A stretch of 64,000 bases of DNA from Noviherbaspirillum suwonense (GTDB taxonomy: Bacteria; Pseudomonadota; Gammaproteobacteria; Burkholderiales; Burkholderiaceae_D). Location of the stretch: the NCBI RefSeq assembly GCF_900182955.1, contig NZ_FXUL01000031.1:1-64000 (forward strand), written 5' to 3'. The notes under the pieces were generated by a model, which saw only the letters and a program-made list of their open reading frames with translations, did no database searches and had not been told where the DNA came from. This document shows positions 17,087-30,169 of this stretch, in pieces; position 1 is the stretch's first letter, and each line of letters starts with the position of its first letter. The translations under genes and the position numbers were made by a program.

Positions 17087-19312
17087 ATGAACGAACGCAC
17101 CACCGTCCACGGGCTCCAGATTGCAACGCCGCTGCACCGCTTCATCGAAGACAAGGTGCTGCCCGGCACCGGCGTCGACAGCGCCAGCTTCTGGAAGGGT
17201 TTCGACGCCATCGTCCATGAGCTGGCGCCGAAAAACATCACGCTGCTGGCCGAGCGCGACCGGCTGCAGACCGAGCTGGACAACTGGCATCGCGCCAACC
17301 CGGGACCGGTCAGCGATATCGCCGCTTACCGCGCGTTCCTGGAATCCATAGGCTACATGCAGCCGCAGCCGGAAAACTTCACCATCACCACCGACAATGT
17401 CGATGCCGAACTGGCGATCCAGGCCGGCCCGCAGCTGGTCGTGCCGATCCTGAACGCCCGCTATGCGCTCAATGCCGCCAACGCCCGCTGGGGTTCCCTC
17501 TACGATGCGCTGTACGGCACCGACGCGATTGCCGAGACCGACGGCGCCACCCGCGCCGGCCCCGGCGGCGAGAGCTACAACCCGGTGCGCGGCGCGAAAG
17601 TGATCGCCTTTGGCCGCAATCTGCTGGACCAGGCCGCGCCGCTGGCAAAGGGCAGCCACGCCGACGCCGCCGGCTACCGTGTCGCCGGTGGCGCGCTGGA
17701 AGTCAGCCTGAAGGATGGCGCCAGCACCGGCCTCGCCGATGCATCCAAGTTCGTCGGATACCAGGGCAGCGCCGATGCGCCCAGCTCGGTGCTGCTGAAG
17801 AACAATGGCCTGCATATCGACATCATCATCGACCGCAACACGCCGATCGGCAAGAGCGATGCGGCCGGCGTCGCCGACCTCGTGATCGAAGCCGCGCTGT
17901 CCACCATCCTCGACCTCGAGGACTCGGTCGCAGCGGTCGACGCCGAGGACAAGGTGCTGGCTTACTCGAACTGGCTGGGCATCCTGCAGGCCACGCTGTC
18001 GGAAACCATCACCAAGGGCGGCAATGCGTTCACCCGCAGCCTGAACCCGGACCGCGAGTACACGGCCGGCCCCGGCGCGACCGATGCGAAGGATGGCGTG
18101 GTCACGCTGCATGGCCGCTCGCTGCTGTTCCTGCGCAATGTCGGCCACCTGATGACCAACCCGGCCATCCTGTACGACGGCGACAAGGAAATCCCGGAAG
18201 GCATCATGGACGCGGTCGTCACTGTCGCGATCGCGCTGCATGACCTGAAGCGCAAGCCGGGCCAGAAGATAGGCAACTCGCGCACCGGCTCGGTCTACAT
18301 CGTCAAGCCCAAGATGCACGGACCGGCCGAAGTCGCGTTCGCCAGCGAGCTGTTCGGCCGCGTCGAAAGCCTGCTCGGTCTGCCGGCGGAGACCGTCAAG
18401 CTGGGCATCATGGATGAAGAGCGCCGCACCAGCGTCAACCTGATGGCCTGCATCCGCGAAGCGACCGGCCGCGTGGCCTTCATCAACACCGGCTTCCTGG
18501 ACCGCACCGGCGACGAGATGCACAGCGCCATGCATGCCGGCCCGATGATGCGCAAGGGCGACATGAAGACCAGCACCTGGCTCACCGCCTACGAGCGCAG
18601 CAATGTGTTGACCGGCCTGGCCTGCGGGCTGCGCGGACGTGCGCAGATCGGCAAGGGCATGTGGGCGATGCCGGACCTGATGGCGGCGATGCTGGAACAG
18701 AAGATCGCCCACCCGAAGGCCGGCGCCAACACGGCATGGGTGCCATCGCCGACCGGCGCCACGTTGCATGCGCTGCATTACCACCAGGTTAATGTCGCGG
18801 AGATCCAGCAGGGACTGGAGAAAAACGCGACCGCAGCCGAGATCGACCGGCTGCGCAACGAGCTGCTGCAGATCCCGGTAGTGGCCGAAGCCAAATGGTC
18901 GAAGGAAGAGATCCAGCAGGAGCTGGACAACAATGCGCAGGGCATACTCGGTTACGTGGTGCGCTGGATCGACCAGGGCGTCGGCTGCTCCAAGGTGCCC
19001 GACATCCACAACGTCGGCCTGATGGAAGACCGCGCGACGCTGCGCATCTCCAGCCAGCACATCGCCAACTGGCTGCTGCATGGCGTTGTCGCCGAAGCGC
19101 AGGTCAACGAGACGCTGCAGCGGATGGCGCGCGTGGTCGATGCGCAGAACGACAACGATCCGTTCTATACGCCGATGGCGCCGGACTTCGAGTCGTCGTA
19201 TGCATTCCGCGCCGCGCGCGACCTGGTGTTCAAGGGCCTGTCGCAGCCGAGCGGCTATACCGAGCCGCTGCTGCATGCGTGGCGCCTGAAGGTCAAGGCG
19301 GAACGCAAGTAA
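17087..19312 (+). CDS. glcB: Malate synthase G
   Basis: A 741-aa monomeric malate synthase that condenses glyoxylate and acetyl-CoA to malate. Recognisable family segments are [42 protein letters not shown] (Glu278/Asp279 region), [28 protein letters not shown] and [16 protein letters not shown]. The C-terminal half contains [15 protein letters not shown] and [18 protein letters not shown]-like elements. Length matches GlcB rather than the shorter AceB. It follows the haloacid dehalogenase on the same strand. A 9-bp hairpin follows the stop. Confidence 0.96.
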
Positions 19313-19320
19313 GCCGGCAG

Positions 19321-19343
19321 GCGGTGCGCCCCCGGCGCACCGC
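19321..19343 (+). terminator. Hairpin after glcB
   Basis: GCGGTGCGC (19321-19329) pairs with GCGCACCGC (19335-19343) around a short C-rich loop, eight bases after the glcB stop; there is no T-run. Confidence 0.45.
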
Positions 19344-19426
19344 AACATGCGTCCGGGCCGGGCACTGTGCCGGCCAGGATGCGCTGCAGCATCGAGCAGG
19401 GAGCCGGCATGACAACCGACTCTCTG

Positions 19427-19455
19427 TTTTTTTTCGACCCGATCCCCTCTATAAT
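19427..19455 (+). promoter_or_regulatory. Candidate promoter for the hybrid kinase operon
   Basis: A perfect TATAAT at 19450-19455 lies 84 bp upstream of the kinase start. The -35 position is a T-run (19427-19432), so the -35 match is poor. Confidence 0.4.
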
Positions 19456-19538
19456 CAGGCCGGGCATTCGTCTCCATCGCCCTCGGCCTACAGGCTCGCG
19501 CAGGCGCACCGCCACCTTCTACCCTCATGGAGACTCCG

Positions 19539-22022
19539 ATGCCAGGCTGGCTAAGAGAAATTACCGAACAGAGCGGCAGCTTCATGCCGCACGGGCATTG
19601 CTACCTGTGGATACCCAGCCTGCTGTGGATGCATGTGGTTTCCGATGCGCTGATCGGCATTGCCTATCTCGGCATCTCGCTGATCCTTTACCTGCTGGTG
19701 CGCTCGATACGCCTGCCCTTCAGCCCCGTGTTCATCGCATTCGGCCTGTTCATCGGCCTGTGCGGCATTACCCATTTCATGAAGATCTGGACGGTGTGGC
19801 ATCCGGACTATTTCCTCGACGGGCTGATCAAGGTCGCGACCGCGGCCGCTTCGGTCGCCACGGCCATTGGCCTGCTCTATGTGCGTCCGCAGATCGTGGA
19901 AACCATCACGGCCGCCCGCCTGTCGGAAGAGCGGCGCATCCGGCTCGAAGCCGCCCATGCCGAGCTCGAAGGCCTTTATCGCAAGGTCAAGGAACTCGAC
20001 GAGCTGAAGACCCAGTTCTTCGCCAACCTCTCGCATGAACTCCGCACGCCGCTCGCGCTGATCGTCGGCCCCGCCCAGAACATGCGCGACGACGGCAACC
20101 TGACGCCGCAGCAGCGGCGGGCGCTGGACAGCATCAAGCGCAATGGCGACAGCCTGCTGCGCCAGATTAACGACCTGCTCGACCTGACCAGGCTGGAGGC
20201 AGGCAAGCTCGATCTGCATTACGCCAGGCTGGACCTGGGCCCCTGGGTCGGCCGGATCGCCGCGCAGTTCGACGTCGCGGCCGAGCAGCGCGGCCTGCGG
20301 CTGCAGATGACCGCTACCGGACCGGTGATGGCCGAGGTGGATCCCGACATGCTGGAACGGGTGCTGATCAACCTGCTGTCGAACGCAATCAAGTTCACCC
20401 CGGCCGGCGGCTCGATCGAGGTCGCGCTGCAGTCGCTGAACGGATGGGTCGAGATCGGCGTATCCGACAGCGGGCCCGGCATCGATGCAGCCGACCGGGA
20501 GATCATCTTCGAGCGTTTCAGGCAGGCCGACGGCAGCATCACCCGCAAGCATGGCGGCAGCGGCCTCGGACTTGCAATCGTCAGGGACGTGGTGTCGCTG
20601 CATGGCGGATCGGTCGAGGCCGGCGTATCGGCTGCGGGCGGCGCCGCCTTCGTGGTGCGCCTGCCGCAGTCGGCCGGCCCGCTCGTGCGGACCGACGCGA
20701 CGCAACAGGCAGCGGCGCCGGCAACCCGGCTTGCGCTGGAAAGCACATTGCGCGACCTGTCCGCGCCGGACCAGCCGGCGTCGTCCGCGCCCGCGGTGGC
20801 CGGCCAGCCTTCGGTGCTGGTAGTGGAAGACAACCCGGACATGCGCGAATTCATCGCCGGGCTGCTAAGCGAAAGCTGCAGCGTCACCACCGCGGTGGAC
20901 GGCAGGCAGGGACTGGAGCGCGCGCATGCGCTGCGCCCGGACCTGATCATCACCGACATCATGATGCCGGTGATGAGCGGCGACCAGATGGTGAAGGCGC
21001 TGCGCGAATCCGCCGCGATGGCCGACGTGCCGGTGCTGCTGCTGACCGCGCGTGCCGACGACGAGATGCGGGTCGGCCTGCTGCGCGGCGGCGCTCAGGA
21101 CTACCTGACCAAGCCGTTCCAGCCGCACGAACTGAAGGCGCGCGCAGCCAACCTGATCAGCGCCAAGCGCGCCGGCGACAAACTGCGCGCGGCGCTGGCA
21201 GGCGCATCGGGCGACCTCGAGGCGCTTGCTTCGCAACTGGTCGACAAGCACGGGCAACTGCGCGCGGCGCTCGACGCGGCCGATGTGGCGCGCGAACAGG
21301 CCGAACGGGCCAGCCAGGTCAAGAGCCTGTTCCTCGGCATGGTCTCGCACGAGCTGCGCACGCCGATCGCCACGATAGACATGAATGTGCAGATGCTCCA
21401 GCGCAGCCGCGAGACCAGCCTGCCGGAATACCAGTGGCATCGGGTCGAACGCCTGGGCCGGGCCACCAGGCAGATCGCCGGGCTGGTGGAAGGCCTGCTG
21501 GAATATGCGCGCTTCGAAAGCGGCAAGGTCAACGTGCACATGGAGCCGCTGGACGCGACCGCGATTGCCCGCGAAGTCGTTGCCGCGCATGCCGACCAGG
21601 CCGGCGACAGCGTCGCGCTGGCTTTCGACACGCCTGCGCAGGCTATCCCGGCGCTGGTCAGCGACGGCCGCCTGCTGCGGGTGGTGCTCGGCAACTTGGT
21701 GTCGAATGCGCTCAAGTTCACCACGCATGGCAGCGTCCGCGTAGCGCTTGCCGTCCAGCCGGGATCGCTGGCCTTCGTCGTCCAGGACACCGGGCCGGGG
21801 CTCGAGGACGCCGACATTGCGCGTATCTTCATGCCCTTCGAGCAGCTGGCCCCGGTACAGCGCAAGAGCGTCCCGGGCGTCGGCCTGGGCCTGGCGCTGG
21901 TCGACCAGATTGTCAGCGCGCTCGGGGGAAAAGTGGAGATCGTTTCCAAACCGGGAAAAGGCAGTTCCTTTACCGTGCGCCTGCCTGCCACGCCGTCCGG
22001 CATGTCCGGTCAACTGTCCTGA
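19539..22022 (+). CDS. Hybrid histidine kinase with ethylene-receptor-like membrane domain (HK-REC-HK)
   Basis: An 827-aa sensor kinase. The N-terminal 120 residues form three hydrophobic helices that align with plant ETR1: SDALIGIAYLGISLIL with Asp36, and FIGLCGITHFMKIW with Cys75 and His79. These match ETR1 Asp25, Cys65 and His69, the copper/ethylene-binding residues. Next come a short coiled coil and a HisKA domain (His166 in SHELRTPLA). A HATPase domain (LINLLSNAIKF, DSGPGI, GSGLGLAIV) and a receiver (LVVEDNPDMREFI, ITDIMMPVMSG, TKPFQ) follow. A second HisKA (SHELRTPIA) and HATPase complete it. The start at 19539 is preferred because GGAG lies six bases upstream. A single-domain receiver gene follows 14 bp downstream. 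Confidence 0.92.
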   Translation: MPGWLREITEQSGSFMPHGHCYLWIPSLLWMHVVSDALIGIAYLGISLILYLLVRSIRLPFSPVFIAFGLFIGLCGITHFMKIWTVWHPDYFLDGLIKVATAAASVATAIGLLYVRPQIVETITAARLSEERRIRLEAAHAELEGLYRKVKELDELKTQFFANLSHELRTPLALIVGPAQNMRDDGNLTPQQRRALDSIKRNGDSLLRQINDLLDLTRLEAGKLDLHYARLDLGPWVGRIAAQFDVAAEQRGLRLQMTATGPVMAEVDPDMLERVLINLLSNAIKFTPAGGSIEVALQSLNGWVEIGVSDSGPGIDAADREIIFERFRQADGSITRKHGGSGLGLAIVRDVVSLHGGSVEAGVSAAGGAAFVVRLPQSAGPLVRTDATQQAAAPATRLALESTLRDLSAPDQPASSAPAVAGQPSVLVVEDNPDMREFIAGLLSESCSVTTAVDGRQGLERAHALRPDLIITDIMMPVMSGDQMVKALRESAAMADVPVLLLTARADDEMRVGLLRGGAQDYLTKPFQPHELKARAANLISAKRAGDKLRAALAGASGDLEALASQLVDKHGQLRAALDAADVAREQAERASQVKSLFLGMVSHELRTPIATIDMNVQMLQRSRETSLPEYQWHRVERLGRATRQIAGLVEGLLEYARFESGKVNVHMEPLDATAIAREVVAAHADQAGDSVALAFDTPAQAIPALVSDGRLLRVVLGNLVSNALKFTTHGSVRVALAVQPGSLAFVVQDTGPGLEDADIARIFMPFEQLAPVQRKSVPGVGLGLALVDQIVSALGGKVEIVSKPGKGSSFTVRLPATPSGMSGQLS

Positions 22023-22036
22023 ATGGAGAGCGACAA

Positions 22037-22411
22037 ATGCCGCACCTGAATATCGTCGTCATCGAAGATGATGCCGACCTGCGCGAGACGATGAAGGAAC
22101 TGCTCGAGATCGAAGGCTTCACCGTCGATACCGCCGAGAACGGCCAGGAAGGCCTGAGCCTGATCGAGCGCAGCGGCCCGCCCTGCCTGATCCTGCTCGA
22201 CATGATGATGCCGGTGATGAACGGCTGGGAATTCCTCGAAGCGGTGAAGCGGGACTGCCCGCCGGCGCTTGCGCAGACGCAGGTGGCGGTGGTGTCCGCG
22301 GCGGCGGACATGGCGGACGTGCAGCGGCAGTATGGCTGCACGATACTAAGAAAGCCGGTCAACCTCGCCCGTCTTTTCGAGCTGGCGCACGCGGCCTGCG
22401 ACGACTGCTAG
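22037..22411 (+). CDS. Single-domain response regulator (CheY-like)
   Basis: A 124-aa receiver without an output domain. Acid pair in VVIEDDADLRE, phospho-acceptor Asp in LILLDMMMPVMNGWEF, switch residues in VAVVSAAADM and the conserved Lys in ILRKPVNL. SD GGAGAG precedes the ATG. Located 14 bp after the ETR1-like hybrid kinase and probably its partner in a phosphorelay. Its 3' end overlaps the convergent DUF2784 gene by 53 bp. Confidence 0.92.
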   Translation: MPHLNIVVIEDDADLRETMKELLEIEGFTVDTAENGQEGLSLIERSGPPCLILLDMMMPVMNGWEFLEAVKRDCPPALAQTQVAVVSAAADMADVQRQYGCTILRKPVNLARLFELAHAACDDC

Positions 22412-22784
22412 GCGGGAAGCGTCGCCAGGCAAGCAGCACGGCAAGCCCGAAGGCCGTGTATGCGGCAATGAACATCCACGGCGGAAGGTCGTAATACAGC
22501 AGCCGCCGCATCCAGTAGCCGATGAAACTCTCCACCTGCACGGGCTGCCCGGCGCGCGAACGCAGCCAGGCTTCCAGCGTGGTCAGCGGGCAGGCGATGC
22601 CCAGCCAGCTTTCGGCGACCACGATGGCGATCGCCAGCAGGTGGGCGAGCCGGAACCACCAGTGGTTGACCCAGCGCCAGCCGGCCAGGTTGCCGCCGAC
22701 GATCAGCGGCAGGCCGGCGACGACGAACAGCACCACGCCCACGTGCAGCAGCAGCACCAGGTCGGCCAGCAATGCGGTGGGCAT
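22359..22784 (-). CDS. DUF2784 family membrane protein
   Basis: A 141-aa inner-membrane protein with four hydrophobic helices: LADLVLLLHVGVVLFVVAG, the NHWWFRLAHLLAIAIVVAE region, a helix near the LLYYDLPPWMFIAAY segment and a last one before the Arg-rich tail. The family signature LGIACPLTTLE is present. Function unknown. The start MPTALLADLV is typical for the family; an upstream in-frame extension is Pro-rich and unlikely. It overlaps the 3' end of the receiver gene tail to tail. Confidence 0.8.
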   Translation of the reverse strand: MPTALLADLVLLLHVGVVLFVVAGLPLIVGGNLAGWRWVNHWWFRLAHLLAIAIVVAESWLGIACPLTTLEAWLRSRAGQPVQVESFIGYWMRRLLYYDLPPWMFIAAYTAFGLAVLLAWRRFPPSSRRRPRAPARKDGRG

Positions 22785-23957: not shown

Positions 23958-26681
23958 TTACGCCGGGAACAGGAAGCGCTTGCGCAGCAGCAGCGCCGCC
24001 GTGGCGGGCGGCACCGGCGGCGACACGTAGTAGCCCTGGACCTCGTCGCAGCGAAGCGCCTGCAATATGCGCAGCTGTTCCACGGTCTCGACGCCCTCGG
24101 CCACCACCCGCATGCCGATCGCATGGGCCATCGAGACGATCGCGGTAAAGAAGGCAAGGTCCTCGGGGCCGCCGGCCAGCTGCGCGGTGAAGGACTGGTC
24201 CACCTTCAGGCCGTCCATGTCCAGCCTCCTCAATTGCGACAGCGACGAATAGCCGGTGCCGAAATCATCGACATACAGCTTCACGCCCAGCGCCCGGATC
24301 GCGGCGAGCTCGCCGCAGCCGGCGCCCTCCGCGGCCATGGTCGCCGACTCGGTGATCTCGACCTCGATCAGCGCGGCGTCGAGGCCATGCCGGGCCATGC
24401 AGCCGGCCAGGAAGCCGCTGACGGACGCATCGTCGATCTGGCGCGCCGACACATTGATCGACAAGGGCACGACCGGCAGGCCTTCGGCCTTCCACTGCGC
24501 CAGCTGCGCGCATGCGGCGGCGATGACCTGCTCGCCCAGCGGCACGATCAGCCCGTTCTCTTCCGCCAGCGGAATGAAGTCGTCCGGCGCGATCAGGCCG
24601 CGCGACGGATGGCGCCAGCGCACCAGCGCTTCCATGCTGCTCATTTCGCCGCTATCGCCCAGCACCCGCGGCTGGTAATGCAGCTCGAGCTGGCCGGTGT
24701 CGATTGCGAGTCGCAGCTCCGCCTGCCGCGTCAGCCGGCTTATCAGCAGTTCGGACAGCCTGGGCTGGAACAGGCGGTAACGGCTCTTGCCTTCGGCCTT
24801 GGCCGCATACATCGCAATGTCCGCATGCTTGAGCAGCGTCTCGCCGTCGGCGCCGTCGCGCGGATAGAGGCTGATGCCGATCGACGCGCGCACAGTGTGC
24901 CTGCTGCCCGCGCCGATGACGAACGGGTCGCCCAGCGTGTCGATGATGCGCCCGGCCACCGCGAGCACTTCGGCCTCGTTGGCCGCGGACTCCAGGACGA
25001 TGGTGAATTCGTCGCCGCCCAGCCGGGCAATGCTGTCGCCCTGCCGCACCAGCGCCTTGAGCCGCAGCGCCGCCGCGCGCAGCAGGTCGTCGCCGGCGCC
25101 GTGTCCCAGCGTGTCGTTAACGTTCTTGAAGTCGTCGAAGTCGACGAACAGCAGCGCCAGCATCGACGCGCTGTCGCGCGCACGCTCGATCGCAGCCGGA
25201 AGCGTGCGCATCAGCCAGTGCCGGTTGGGCAGCGTCGTCACCGGGTCGGCATTGGCAAGGTGGGCCAGCGCGTCCTCGTGCGCCTTCTGGTCCGAGATGT
25301 CCCGCAACGTCACCGCCAGCCCGAGGCCGGAGCGGACCAGCCTGCGCTGCAGCCACTGCACGTCGCGCCCCTCGCGGGCGGGCAGGTGCATCTCGTCCTC
25401 GTAGAAGCCGGTCTCCATCGCGATCCGGCAGGCCGGCAGCATGTGGGATTCGAACAGCGCCGGCACCATGGCCGACAGCCGGTTGCCAAGCAGCTGCGCA
25501 CGCGGCAGGCCGCGATACATCGCGCCGCGTTCATTGCAGTCCTCGATCAGAAAGTCCGCCAGTTGCCTGCCCTTGTCATACAGCGGCCGGAGCATGTAGA
25601 AGCCTTCGCGCGCGCTGTCGATGGCAAGCCGGTAGGTGGCCTGGACCTCGCGCTCGTACTGCGTGCGCCAGATCCGCCAGCTCGCCAGGCTCATGCTGAC
25701 GCCGGTGAGCAGCATCAGCAGCGCGCTGCCAGCCAGAGCGATCAGGCGCAGCTCCCTTTCGCGCGGCTGGTAGGCAGCCGTCAGCCCGTCTTCCGCCAGC
25801 CCCACCAGCGCGACCAGCGGATAGTTCGGGACGCTGTGCCAGCCGGTGTAGCGGGCGCGCCCGTCGATGAAGCGGTCGCCCGCCATCAGGGCCAGGCCGG
25901 TCGGCCGGTCGAACGCCGGGTCGTCTTTCAGCACCGGGTGGCTGGCGCTGCCGCTGCCGGCGGAGCGCGCTGCGAAGAAGGCGCCGTCCCTGCGCCGGGC
26001 GGCGAAGAAGGCGCCGTCCCTGCGCCGGGCGGCGATGAAGTCGCCGTCGCGCAGGCTGGTGTCGTCGACGAAGGAGGACAGGTAGGCCGGCTCGATGGCG
26101 ACCACCACGAGGCCGTTGAATCCGCCCTGGCTATCGTCGAGGCGGCGCGACAGGATGAGGACCGGGCGACTGGACCGCAGCCCCGGCATGGGCCGGGAAA
26201 ACTGCAGGCCCAGCGTAGGGTCGTCCCGATGTGCGATGAAGTAGGCGCGTCCCGCGATGTTGAAGCGCGCGCTGCCCAGCGGCTGGGTGCTGGTGACAGG
26301 GTCGCCGCGGCGGTTGAAGATGGAGACGGCCAGCGCGGGCGACACCGGCACCAGTCCCTGCCGCACCTGGTCCTCCAGCTTTACCCCGCCGGCCGACTGC
26401 TGCCAGTGGTACTTCAGGCTCAGCATGATGTAGTCGACCTGGCCGATGATGCGGTCGAGTTGGTCCGCGTAGGCCCGCGACTGCGCCGCCGCGCTTGCAT
26501 AGGCGCGTTCGCCGATGGCGCGCCTTTCGTTCTCCATGGTCCAGCAGGCCCAGCTCCATAGCGCCGCCGCCAGCAGGCCGAACACCGCCGGCCATAGCAG
26601 CAGGGTGCGCAAGTTGTTGGCCAGATGACGCAGTTTCTCGGCACGGCTGAAGGGAAGCGGCCTGGTCGGTATGAATCGCAT
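23958..26681 (-). CDS. GGDEF-EAL bifunctional c-di-GMP enzyme with periplasmic sensor
   Basis: A 907-aa protein. TM1 (about 28-50) precedes a periplasmic Cache-like domain, and TM2 lies near 310-335. A PAS-like segment, a GGDEF domain with intact active site (ARLGGDEFTIVL) and an EAL domain follow. The EAL has EALVRWRHP, INVSARQ, EITES and DDFGTGYSS, so both cyclase and phosphodiesterase sites look competent. Within the periplasmic part (around residues 215-240) a 10-residue unit DGxFxAARRR is repeated three times; it is encoded by a nearly exact 30-bp tandem repeat. The signal is unknown. No good SD precedes the ATG at 26681, so the start may lie slightly elsewhere. Confidence 0.9.
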   Translation of the reverse strand: MRFIPTRPLPFSRAEKLRHLANNLRTLLLWPAVFGLLAAALWSWACWTMENERRAIGERAYASAAAQSRAYADQLDRIIGQVDYIMLSLKYHWQQSAGGVKLEDQVRQGLVPVSPALAVSIFNRRGDPVTSTQPLGSARFNIAGRAYFIAHRDDPTLGLQFSRPMPGLRSSRPVLILSRRLDDSQGGFNGLVVVAIEPAYLSSFVDDTSLRDGDFIAARRRDGAFFAARRRDGAFFAARSAGSGSASHPVLKDDPAFDRPTGLALMAGDRFIDGRARYTGWHSVPNYPLVALVGLAEDGLTAAYQPRERELRLIALAGSALLMLLTGVSMSLASWRIWRTQYEREVQATYRLAIDSAREGFYMLRPLYDKGRQLADFLIEDCNERGAMYRGLPRAQLLGNRLSAMVPALFESHMLPACRIAMETGFYEDEMHLPAREGRDVQWLQRRLVRSGLGLAVTLRDISDQKAHEDALAHLANADPVTTLPNRHWLMRTLPAAIERARDSASMLALLFVDFDDFKNVNDTLGHGAGDDLLRAAALRLKALVRQGDSIARLGGDEFTIVLESAANEAEVLAVAGRIIDTLGDPFVIGAGSRHTVRASIGISLYPRDGADGETLLKHADIAMYAAKAEGKSRYRLFQPRLSELLISRLTRQAELRLAIDTGQLELHYQPRVLGDSGEMSSMEALVRWRHPSRGLIAPDDFIPLAEENGLIVPLGEQVIAAACAQLAQWKAEGLPVVPLSINVSARQIDDASVSGFLAGCMARHGLDAALIEVEITESATMAAEGAGCGELAAIRALGVKLYVDDFGTGYSSLSQLRRLDMDGLKVDQSFTAQLAGGPEDLAFFTAIVSMAHAIGMRVVAEGVETVEQLRILQALRCDEVQGYYVSPPVPPATAALLLRKRFLFPA
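25972..26055. repeat. In-frame 30-bp tandem repeat inside the GGDEF-EAL gene
   Basis: Two identical 30-bp units (25972-26001 and 26002-26031) and a diverged partial third (26032-26055) encode three copies of DGxFxAARRR in the periplasmic domain. Identity between units suggests recent slippage or duplication. Confidence 0.85.
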
Positions 26682-26983: not shown

Positions 26984-29900
26984 ATGTCCATGGTCCAACT
27001 TGCGCTGCGCCGGCCGTACACCTTCCTGGTGATGGCCCTGCTGATCCTGCTCGCCACGCCGTTCGCGCTGCGCAATATGGCGACCGACATCTTCCCCGAA
27101 ATTAATATCCCGGTCATCAGCATCATCTGGAATTACAACGGCCTGTCGGCGCAGGAGATGGGGCAGCGCGTGGCGGCCCAGACCGAGCGCGGACTGACCA
27201 CGACCGTCAGCGACATCGAGCACATCGAGTCGCAGTCGCTGTCGGGCGTGTCGATCATCAAGATCTTCTTCCAGCCCACCGCGAACATCCAGACCGCGAT
27301 CGCCCAGACCGTGGCATCGGTGCAGACCCAGGTCCGCCAGCTGCCGCCGGGGATCACGCCGCCGCTGGTCATCAAGTATTCGGCGTCCAGCATCCCGGTG
27401 GTCCAGCTCGCGCTGTCGTCGCCGACGCTGCCGGAGCAGACCGTGTTCGACGCCGCGGTCAACCAGCTGCGGCCGCAGCTCGTGACGATACCGGGCGTCG
27501 CCATCCCCTTCCCCTATGGCGGCAAGATCCGCCTGATCTCGGTCGACCTCGACGTGCAGGCGCTGCAGTCGCGCGGCATGGCGCCGGTCGATGTCGTCAA
27601 TGCGATCAATACGCAGAACCTGGTGCTCCCGTCAGGCACCGCGAAGTTCGGCGAGACGGAATTCAACGTGCGCATGAACGGCTCGCCGGACGCCATCAGC
27701 GGCCTCAACGACCTGCCGGTGCGCACCGCGGCCGGCGCCACCACCTATGTCCGCGACGTCGCCCAGGTGCGCGACGGCTTCTCGCCGCAGACCAACGTGG
27801 TGCGCCGCGACGGCGAGCGCGGCGTGCTGCTGTCGGTGCTCAAGAACGGCGGCGCGTCGACGCTGGACATCGTCGCCAATGTGCGCGCGATGCTGCCGGT
27901 GGCGATGCAGACCATGTCCGCGGACATCAAGGTGACCCCGCTGTTCGACCAGTCGGTGTTCGTCAAGGCCGCCATCAAGGGCGTGGTCGCCGAGGCCGTC
28001 ATCGCCGCCGGCCTGACCGCCGCGATGGTGCTGCTCTTCCTCGGCAACTGGCGCAGCACGGTGATCATCGCCGCGACCATACCGCTGTCCATCCTGGCTT
28101 CCATCCTGATGCTGTACATGCTCGGGGAAACGCTGAACCTGATGACGCTGGGCGGGCTGGCGCTGTCGGTCGGCATCCTGGTCGACCAGGCCATCGTCAC
28201 CATCGAGAACATCGAGCGCCACCTGCACCTGGGCAAAACCCTGGAAGACGCGATCCTGACCGGCGCCGGCGAGATCGGCATACCGGTGCTGGTGGCCACC
28301 ATGTGCATCTGCATCGTGTTCGTGCCGATGTTCTTCCTGTCCGGCGTGGCCCGCTTCCTGTTCGTGCCGCTGGCCGAGGCGGTGGTCTTCGCGATGGCCG
28401 CTTCCTACCTGCTCTCCCGCACGCTGGTGCCGACGCTGGTCATGCTGCTGATGGGCGGCGCGCATGCGGCCGACAGCACGCGCCCGCCCAGCCTGCTGCA
28501 GTGCATGTACCGCGGCTTCGACCGGCAGTTCGAGCGGGTGCGGCGCGCCTACATGCTGATCCTGTCCGCGCTGCTGTCGCGCCGGCGCAATTTCCTGTTC
28601 CTGTTCCTCGGCTTCTGCCTGCTGTCCAGCCTGCTCTACCCGGTGCTGGGCCGCGACTTCTTCCCGACCGTCGACGCCGGCCAGATCCGGCTGCACATGC
28701 GCGCGCCGACCGGCACCCGGATCGAGGAGACCGCGCTGCTGGCCGACCGGGTGGAAGCGGCGATCCGCGAGATCGTGCCGCCGGATCAGCTCGAGACCAT
28801 CCTCGACAACCTCGGCGTGCCCAACAGCGGCATCAACCTCTCTTACAGCAATGCCGGCACCATAGGCGCGATGGACGGCGAGATCCTGCTGTCGCTGCGC
28901 GAGGGCCATCGCCCGACCGAGCAGTTCGTCACGAAGCTGCGGGCCGAGCTGCCCAAGCGCTTTCCCGGCATCGAGTTCTTCTTCCAGCCGGCCGACATCA
29001 TCACGCAGATCCTGAACTTCGGCCTGCCGGCAGCCATCGATGTCCAGTTCTCCGGCAATGACCTGGCTGCGAACGCGGCGCTGGCGGGCGAACTCGCGAA
29101 GACCCTGCGGCGCATACCCGGCGCGGTGGACGCGCATGTCCACCAGCGCCTCGACAACCCGACCGTCGACCTGCAGGTCGACCGCTCGCGGCTCCAGCAG
29201 CTGGGCCTCTCGGCGTCCAACGTCGGCCAGAACCTGCTGATCGCGCTGTCGGGCAGCTCGCAGACGGCGCCGGCCTTCTGGCTCAATCCGCAGAACGGCG
29301 TGGTCTATAACGTCGCGGTGCAGGCGCCGCAATACCGGGTCGACTCGCTCGACGCGCTGCTCAATATCCCGGTCGCGGCCAGCCAGGGCAGCGCCGCCGG
29401 CAATTCGCCGCAGCTGCTCGGCAACCTGGCCACCGCCCGGCCCGCGCAGTCGCTGCCCATCGTCTCGCGCTACAACATCGTGCCGGTGGTCGACCTCTAC
29501 GTCAGCGTCCAGGGCACCGACCTGGCAAGCGTCGCCAAGCGGGTCAATGCCGAGGTCGATAAAATACGCGCGAAGCTGCCGCGCGGCAGCCAGGTCACCG
29601 TGCGCGGCCAGGTCGAGACCATGCAGTCCTCGTTCGCGGGCCTGCTGATCGGCCTGGCCATGGCCATCGTGCTGGTCTACCTGCTCATCGTGGTCAACTT
29701 CCAGTCGTGGATCGATGCGGCCATCATCATCACCGCGCTGCCCGCGGCGCTGGCGGGCATCGCCTGGATGCTGTTCATCACCGGCACCACGCTGAGCGTG
29801 CCGGCGCTGACCGGCGCCATCATGACGGTGGGCGTGGCCACCGCCAACAGCATCCTGCTGATCGACTTCGCGCGGGAGCGGCGAGCCGAAGGCATACCGG

Positions 29901-30169
29901 TGTTGACGGCCGCGCTGGAAGCAGGCGCCACCCGCATCCGGCCGGTGCTGATGACGGCGCTGGCGATGATCATCGGCATGATCCCGATGGCGCTGGGCGT
30001 GGGCGAAGGCGGCGAGCAGAATGCGCCGCTGGGCCGCGCAGTCATCGGCGGCCTGCTGTTCGCCACGGTATCGACGCTGTTCTTCGTGCCGGTCGTGTAT
30101 GCGGCCGTGCACCAGCGGCTGGCGGCGCGCAAGGCGTCCCGCGCCCGGCTGCTTGCAGTCACCGAATAA
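26984..30169 (+). CDS. RND efflux transporter permease
   Basis: A 1061-aa HAE1/AcrB-class inner-membrane pump with the usual 12-TM duplicated layout. TM1 is RRPYTFLVMALLILLATPF, two large periplasmic loops are present, and the TM4 region reads GILVDQAIVTIENIERH. In AcrB this TM4 site has two adjacent Asp residues; here the first is Asp401 but the second is Gln402. In TM10 the AcrB lysine position falls in VGVATANSILLIDFA and is not lysine. The gene is first in an operon with adaptor and outer-membrane channel, an order different from the usual adaptor-permease-channel. The substrate is unknown. Confidence 0.93.
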   Translation: MSMVQLALRRPYTFLVMALLILLATPFALRNMATDIFPEINIPVISIIWNYNGLSAQEMGQRVAAQTERGLTTTVSDIEHIESQSLSGVSIIKIFFQPTANIQTAIAQTVASVQTQVRQLPPGITPPLVIKYSASSIPVVQLALSSPTLPEQTVFDAAVNQLRPQLVTIPGVAIPFPYGGKIRLISVDLDVQALQSRGMAPVDVVNAINTQNLVLPSGTAKFGETEFNVRMNGSPDAISGLNDLPVRTAAGATTYVRDVAQVRDGFSPQTNVVRRDGERGVLLSVLKNGGASTLDIVANVRAMLPVAMQTMSADIKVTPLFDQSVFVKAAIKGVVAEAVIAAGLTAAMVLLFLGNWRSTVIIAATIPLSILASILMLYMLGETLNLMTLGGLALSVGILVDQAIVTIENIERHLHLGKTLEDAILTGAGEIGIPVLVATMCICIVFVPMFFLSGVARFLFVPLAEAVVFAMAASYLLSRTLVPTLVMLLMGGAHAADSTRPPSLLQCMYRGFDRQFERVRRAYMLILSALLSRRRNFLFLFLGFCLLSSLLYPVLGRDFFPTVDAGQIRLHMRAPTGTRIEETALLADRVEAAIREIVPPDQLETILDNLGVPNSGINLSYSNAGTIGAMDGEILLSLREGHRPTEQFVTKLRAELPKRFPGIEFFFQPADIITQILNFGLPAAIDVQFSGNDLAANAALAGELAKTLRRIPGAVDAHVHQRLDNPTVDLQVDRSRLQQLGLSASNVGQNLLIALSGSSQTAPAFWLNPQNGVVYNVAVQAPQYRVDSLDALLNIPVAASQGSAAGNSPQLLGNLATARPAQSLPIVSRYNIVPVVDLYVSVQGTDLASVAKRVNAEVDKIRAKLPRGSQVTVRGQVETMQSSFAGLLIGLAMAIVLVYLLIVVNFQSWIDAAIIITALPAALAGIAWMLFITGTTLSVPALTGAIMTVGVATANSILLIDFARERRAEGIPVLTAALEAGATRIRPVLMTALAMIIGMIPMALGVGEGGEQNAPLGRAVIGGLLFATVSTLFFVPVVYAAVHQRLAARKASRARLLAVTE

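Follow-up and report, generated by a model that had tools for sequence, protein, structure and literature searches.

What might a membrane domain of the plant ethylene receptor type sense in Noviherbaspirillum suwonense, and how would its signal be passed on? The question is raised by a gene pair in a 64,000-nucleotide stretch of this genome (contig NZ_FXUL01000031.1, positions 1 to 64,000; here called the window), where a hybrid histidine kinase (HK) with an ETR1-type membrane domain is followed by a lone receiver (REC). Judging from sequence, we propose with a probability of about 0.62 that the kinase is a membrane sensor with a Cu(I) site that drives a His166-Asp473-His604-Asp55 relay, and that its ligand may be ethylene or something else. 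A preliminary description of the locus had suggested that it could detect ethylene or bind Cu(I) for another ligand. The putative Cu(I) ligands are indeed kept. However, the ethylene half of that suggestion is weakened, and the other half is strengthened, because the equivalent of ETR1 Pro36, which the preliminary description overlooked, is replaced throughout the clade to which the protein belongs.

The kinase open reading frame occupies 19539..22022 on the + strand, as do all features of the pair, and encodes a membrane protein of 827 amino acids (aa). There are alternative in-frame ATG starts at 19527 and 19539; the stop codon ends at 22022, and we count residues from the ATG at 19539. Pfam places the ETR1_N domain (PF25487) at residues 28 to 120 (19620..19898) and finds HisKA and HATPase_c in two stretches each. 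The first kinase core (HisKA, 157 to 222; HATPase, 268 to 377; 20007..20669) carries the phospho-acceptor His166 at 20034-20036. It is followed by an internal receiver (Response_reg, 426 to 535; 20814..21143) with Asp473 at 20955-20957 and by a second kinase core at about residues 598 to 816 (21330..21986, limits borrowed from the relative L032; such labels are our names for loci) with His604 at 21348-21350. The kinase-receiver-kinase order given in the preliminary description is thus the Pfam domain order, and it is conserved in relatives. After a 14-bp gap comes the partner, a 124-aa protein (22037..22411) in which Pfam finds Response_reg alone (E = 8.4e-19), with a predicted phospho-acceptor at Asp55.

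The assignment of the membrane domain to the ETR1 type was borne out. ETR1_N scored 104.3 bits (E = 4.4e-30) against a curated cutoff of 27, which places the domain in PF25487. The same search matched none of 14 control genomes, so the window match is far above chance, and the domain occurs once in its own 6.45-Mb genome. AlphaFold2 predicted three helices (residues 26 to 56, 62 to 87, and 91 to 150) with a mean predicted local distance difference test score (pLDDT) of 91 from a 73-row alignment, and hydropathy peaks coincide with these membrane helices. Just ahead of helix 1, Cys21 (19599-19601) aligns with ETR1 Cys6, which participates in the disulfide-linked dimer of the plant receptor. Phe-Met-Pro-His-Gly-His-Cys before helix 1 is not used as evidence, because the genome scan described below itself employed that pattern; among domains drawn by family profile, Pro-His-Gly-x-Cys is present in 46 of 58 (23/30 from the family and 23/28 from the phylum).

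We then compared eight ETR1 residues (Asp25, Tyr32, Ile35, Pro36, Ile62, Cys65, His69, and Lys91) with the window protein by alignment. Seven agree. The copper-site residues of functional ethylene receptors, ETR1 Asp25, Cys65, and His69, are all present, as Asp36 (19644..19646), Cys75 (19761..19763), and His79 (19773..19775); these equivalences had been named before and are correct when counted from 19539. Lys91 corresponds to Lys98 (19830..19832), while Tyr32, Ile35, and Ile62 correspond to Tyr43, Ile46, and Ile72. The exception is Pro36, the tomato Never-ripe position, where the window protein has Ser47 (19677..19679). Presumably, Tyr32 completes the seven residues required by ETR1, the others being named in the literature. 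Seven residues are described as required for ethylene binding in ETR1, Asp25 among them (PMC11819568), and Ile35, Pro36, Ile62, Cys65, and His69 are listed among the essential ones (PMC6586836). Copper-binding roles are given for Cys65 and His69, and roles of Asp25 and Lys91 are likewise described (PMC11819568, PMC6586836), Lys91 being the predicted partner of Asp25 (PMC11819568). Never-ripe tomato ETR3, which carries Pro36Leu, is described as a receptor unable to bind ethylene (PMC6727826).

To place Ser47 among relatives, we scanned 84,980 species genomes and took the best 80 of the 345 relatives obtained. With 11 further stretches and the window, these made a set of 92 domains, 91 of them distinct (L082 is a duplicate). 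The scan favored window-like sequences, and the proportions below are therefore not prevalences. At the Pro36 position the 92 domains have Pro in 57 (L082 included), Ser in 28, Ala in 5, Thr in 1, and Leu in 1. When a tree was built with this column removed, the window domain fell in a group of 30 of the 91 distinct bacterial domains, all of which have Ser (26) or Ala (4). Outside this group, 56 of the 61 distinct rows have proline; L037, L040, L041, L042, and L043 do not. The group was supported by a Shimodaira-Hasegawa-like approximate likelihood ratio test (SH-aLRT) value of 95 in a quick tree, by bootstrap 100 and SH-aLRT 94 in a careful tree of 88 rows, and by bootstrap 100 and SH-aLRT 91 in a tree of 127 rows to which samples chosen by family profile, not by likeness to the window, had been added. 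On this last tree the proline position needs at least five changes, though more non-proline rows had been removed beforehand. From these alignments, we regard the replacement of Pro36 as a property of the whole clade.

The copper ligands show a different pattern. Cysteine is kept in 29 of the 30 clade members and histidine in all 30, while proline is found in none, and there is hardly any variation at the copper site or among core helix residues. The group comprises nine Bdellovibrionota, eight Pseudomonadota, seven Myxococcota, two Cyanobacteriota, and four members without a phylum. It holds 18 of the 19 proteins with the HK-REC-HK chain, the exception being L065; the remaining 12 members have simpler outputs or an output that is cut or split. 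An independent-pairs test of proline loss against architecture had few independent pairs to draw on, too few to speak for repeated evolution, and so we treat the association as a property of one clade.

Some members of the tree deserve mention for their own sake. Bdellovibrionota, Myxococcota, and Lysobacter, groups known for predatory lifestyles, contribute the clade members L050, L051, L052, L054, L057-L059, L060, L069, L074, and L121, a link that may be due to chance or sampling. L141 and L145 represent a second lineage, in which Ser stands at the place of Pro36 and the remaining residues are retained; lying outside the clade, they suggest an independent loss of the proline. In L068, a clade member from Sericytochromatia, Gly replaces the copper-ligand Cys, and the Asp position precedes the mechanically chosen start. 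Finally, in L070, L089, L092, and L121 (three Myxococcota and one Bacteriovoracaceae), Asp25 is changed to Asn and Lys91 to Arg together (ETR1 numbering), a paired swap at the predicted polar contact. The Asp-to-Asn change in a plant receptor is described as lowering ethylene affinity about 100-fold (PMC13012798).

Which ligand would such a site report? Ethylene is one candidate, and because the whole clade has lost the counterpart of Pro36, a low affinity for ethylene or a different ligand is at least as likely. The explanation that fares best, to which we would give a little under even odds, is that the Cu(I) site serves to sense something else (copper status, or a small gas or alkene other than ethylene) and that ethylene binding was lost with the proline. 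The retention of both copper ligands in a clade without the proline points this way, as does the spread of the clade over Bdellovibrionota, Myxococcota, Pseudomonadota, and Cyanobacteriota, which implies that it is old or was transferred and that the copper site was kept throughout. However, the loss of ethylene binding by Ser or Ala in the bacterial scaffold is presumed, and the nine nearest loci show no copper-handling partner, the receiver being the only common neighbor. A broader version is possible but rather doubtful: a widespread bacterial clade would have kept the Cu(I) site and given up ethylene binding through the change of Pro to Ser or Ala, with the HK-REC-HK relay reporting copper, another small gas, or an alkene.

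A true ethylene receptor, in which Ser47 is tolerated by the scaffold and ethylene affinity is useful as in AzoEtr1 of Azospirillum brasilense, comes next and has a real, if clearly less than even, chance. AzoEtr1 binds ethylene, showing that bacterial members can (PMC11819568), and the window protein retains six of the seven ETR1 residues, both copper ligands among them; the seventh might be made good by further positions in helices 1 and 2 that are specific to the clade. Set against this are the naming of Pro36 as essential (PMC6586836), the non-binding Pro36Leu receptor of tomato (PMC6727826), and the Ala found in 4 of the 30 clade members, which is the substitution that an alanine scan makes. 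Ethylene is a less likely ligand for the window protein than for AzoEtr1. We also considered 1-aminocyclopropane-1-carboxylate (ACC) deaminase as a sign of ethylene metabolism and rejected it: the lone match to this family in the window's own genome scored 258 of 392 bits, far below the cutoff, and the model matches 6 of the 14 control genomes. This search thus gave no sign of ethylene-related metabolism in that genome, a weak point for an ethylene receptor. Very unlikely is a vestigial sensor, in which the membrane domain is a mere anchor and the signal enters elsewhere; some other PF25487 proteins have lost Cys or His (e.g., L029, L030, and L031) and L068 has Gly for Cys, but near invariance of copper-site and core helix residues in the clade is unexpected for an anchor, and Pfam finds no other sensor domain in the window protein.

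How would the signal leave the membrane? We aligned the chains of 16 of the 19 proteins with the EBD-HK-REC-HK layout (EBD denoting the ETR1-type domain), excluding L062, L068, and L119. All 16 share His166, Asn278, Asn282, Asp310, Gly312, and Gly314 in the first kinase; Glu430, Asp431, Asp473, and Lys525 in the internal receiver; and His604, Asn719, Asn723, Asp750, Gly752, Gly754, Gly780, Gly782, and Gly784 in the second kinase. The two kinases are 34% identical to each other. A partner receiver lies directly downstream on the same strand at all nine nearest loci, with a spacing of −13 to +116 (start minus preceding end, for mechanically chosen starts), and at 11 of the 19 HK-REC-HK loci, the window included; the phospho-acceptor Asp and the Lys are conserved in these 11 aligned partners. 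The window has the sequence features of a TodS-type system: the HK-REC-HK chain, all phospho-acceptors, and a partner receiver. The partner had been called CheY-like. It is a single-domain receiver in the expected place, but CheY has an aromatic switch residue, Tyr106, just before Lys-Pro, and here the window receiver reads Ile-Leu-Arg-Lys-Pro. On this switch-residue test the partner is a lone receiver whose identity as CheY is not supported.

In the mechanism that we consider most likely, the ETR1-type domain would hold Cu(I) at Cys75 and His79, positioned by Asp36 and Lys98, and bind a small ligand there, as conservation suggests. Helix 3 appears to run into the phospho-acceptor helix of the first kinase, so that the state of the ligand could directly set the activity of that kinase. 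This direct control is proposed because the full-length model has a single unbroken helix from residue 91 to 183 (block means of 63 to 83, moderate confidence) and because Pfam finds no PAS, GAF, or HAMP domain between the membrane domain and the first kinase. Phosphate would then pass from His166 to Asp473, to His604, and on to Asp55 of the partner, as in TodS/TodT, a path suggested by the three kinase sites that are invariant in relatives and by the conservation of Asp55 in partners. Having no output domain, the lone receiver would act through protein contact on a target.

Several points weigh against this reading. The set of seven ETR1 residues is incomplete, with Ser47 in place of Pro36. 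The AlphaFold2 model of the full protein reached only moderate confidence (mean pLDDT, 75.9; predicted template modeling score, 0.46; 16-row alignment). Beyond the nearest clade the partner is not universal, as 8 of the 19 HK-REC-HK loci have no adjacent lone receiver on the same strand; L065 has one on the opposite strand, and L089 has one 1,049 bp away. Moreover, the internal receiver might switch on the second kinase by an allosteric effect and not by relay, as in LvrB, for which receiver phosphorylation is described as raising kinase activity (PMC5863495). The behavior of LvrB makes such a route from Asp473 to the second kinase a fair alternative.

Among the nine nearest loci, the partner receiver is the sole adjacent gene common to all, and no ethylene-related gene is among the common neighbors (for L049, the upstream side covers only about 250 bp). 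Upstream genes for malate synthase G, a haloacid dehalogenase (HAD) hydrolase, and a PutA-like protein (named by eye) were matched inside the genus only, and two Polaromonas loci share neighbors of their own. Matches between genera were few and either weak or displaced, lying kilobases away at differing positions. A promoter scan of 19200-22700 gave 0 promoter-like sites (0.4 expected) and a terminator scan gave 2 terminator-like sites (1.6 expected), nothing beyond expectation; the 64-kb window has no Rfam or tRNA features. Further downstream, 23958-26681 on the − strand encodes a GGDEF-EAL protein that is likely to act in cyclic di-GMP turnover; its match to dCache is weak and falls short of the cutoff. 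On the + strand, 26984-30169 encodes an AcrB-type efflux transporter of the resistance-nodulation-division (RND) family (Pfam ACR_tran; NCBIfam models all below their cutoffs).

The family profile shows how common the domain is. With the window's own genome counted, ETR1_N matches 3 of 4 genomes in the genus, 39 of 195 in the family, and 29 of 398 in the phylum. We read 30 of the 49 family matches and 28 of the 32 phylum matches. The proline is missing in 9/30 and 7/28 of these loci, respectively, and most of the domains concerned lack further residues as well. Four of the family loci (the window's own, two from the same genus, and that of Noviherbaspirillum galbum) and two of the phylum loci (L141 and L145) combine Ser with an otherwise intact set. 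Among 392 family genomes, domains more than 60% identical to that of the window are confined to three genomes of the genus and N. galbum, which fits patchy transfer. A profile of the full-protein class, run on 274 genomes at E = 1e-150, returned only the window and one partial relative, L156 (E = 2.5e-151 over the first kinase and receiver). L156 is an 825-residue open frame with an HK-REC-HK chain and, in place of an ETR1-type start, one that looks PAS-like by eye. This chain without the membrane domain implies that HK-REC-HK chains are also combined with other sensors.

With the copper ligands present and the Never-ripe proline absent, this clade amounts to a natural experiment. Ethylene binding by its members would mean that the proline is not a general requirement, and a lack of binding would mean that the fold serves bacteria for a different signal. 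Should ethylene binding have been given up and another ligand be reported, the plant ethylene pocket would be one specialized form of an older sensor fold with a Cu(I) site. Structural work might also find a practical target in a small bacterial member, since we found no solved structure of an ETR1-type domain by sequence search (best E = 0.086, to a stretch of a glutamate receptor), by profile search (no match), or by Foldseek (0 matches at E ≤0.001; best E = 0.93, to general helical bundles). According to a 2026 review, the membrane domain of ETR1 still awaits an experimental structure at high resolution (PMC13012798).

How does this system compare with those already known? Ethylene binding is described as demonstrated for few bacterial proteins only (PMC11819568), but with AzoEtr1 and SynEtr1 among them, a bacterial ETR1-type sensor is not new in kind. 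The AzoEtr1/Azorr-etr1 system resembles that of the window in its N-terminal ETR1-type domain joined to a histidine kinase, in a 135-aa lone receiver encoded just downstream and described as having no recognized output motif, and in D35, C75, H79, and K98, the named equivalents of ETR1 residues, whose analogues are present here (PMC11819568). AzoEtr1 differs in being a 525-aa protein with PAS and one kinase, where the window protein has a kinase-receiver-kinase chain and no PAS was found, and in having all seven residues and binding ethylene, where the window protein has Ser at the proline position (PMC11819568). SynEtr1 (slr1212, Synechocystis) and plant ETR1 share the three-helix domain with its copper-site residues but have all seven residues, Pro36 included (PMC11819568). 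Their output chains also differ from that of the window. SynEtr1 additionally senses light (PMC6682694), and a GAF domain is present in plant ETR1 (PMC9603746).

The chain has its own precedents, and its description as unusual did not hold, because TodS and LvrA have the same HK-REC-HK order. TodS/TodT of Pseudomonas putida is a transmitter-receiver-transmitter protein with a partner receiver and operates by a His-Asp-His-Asp relay (PMC4321377). TodS is described with PAS sensors and no membrane regions, and TodT with a DNA-binding domain, in contrast to the membrane sensor and lone receiver of the window (PMC4321377). Of the NCBIfam models, LvrA of Leptospira (PMC5863495) comes closest to the chain (E = 2.2e-149; 499 bits, below the 1200 cutoff); unlike the window protein, it is predicted to be cytoplasmic without membrane regions, and its partner LvrB is a receiver-kinase (PMC5863495). 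A 2010 census counted 262 transmitter-receiver-transmitter-receiver loci with any gene split, TodST being a case with the last receiver separate (TRT-R) (PMC3018481), and prokaryotic ETR1-type members are reported to have a wide range of output domains (PMC7700396). In the open literature, subscription papers being outside our scope, we found no account of an ETR1-type clade lacking the proline or of HK-REC-HK proteins of the ETR1 type. Taken together, the architecture is a variation on a known type, and what is new is the clade and its testable consequence.
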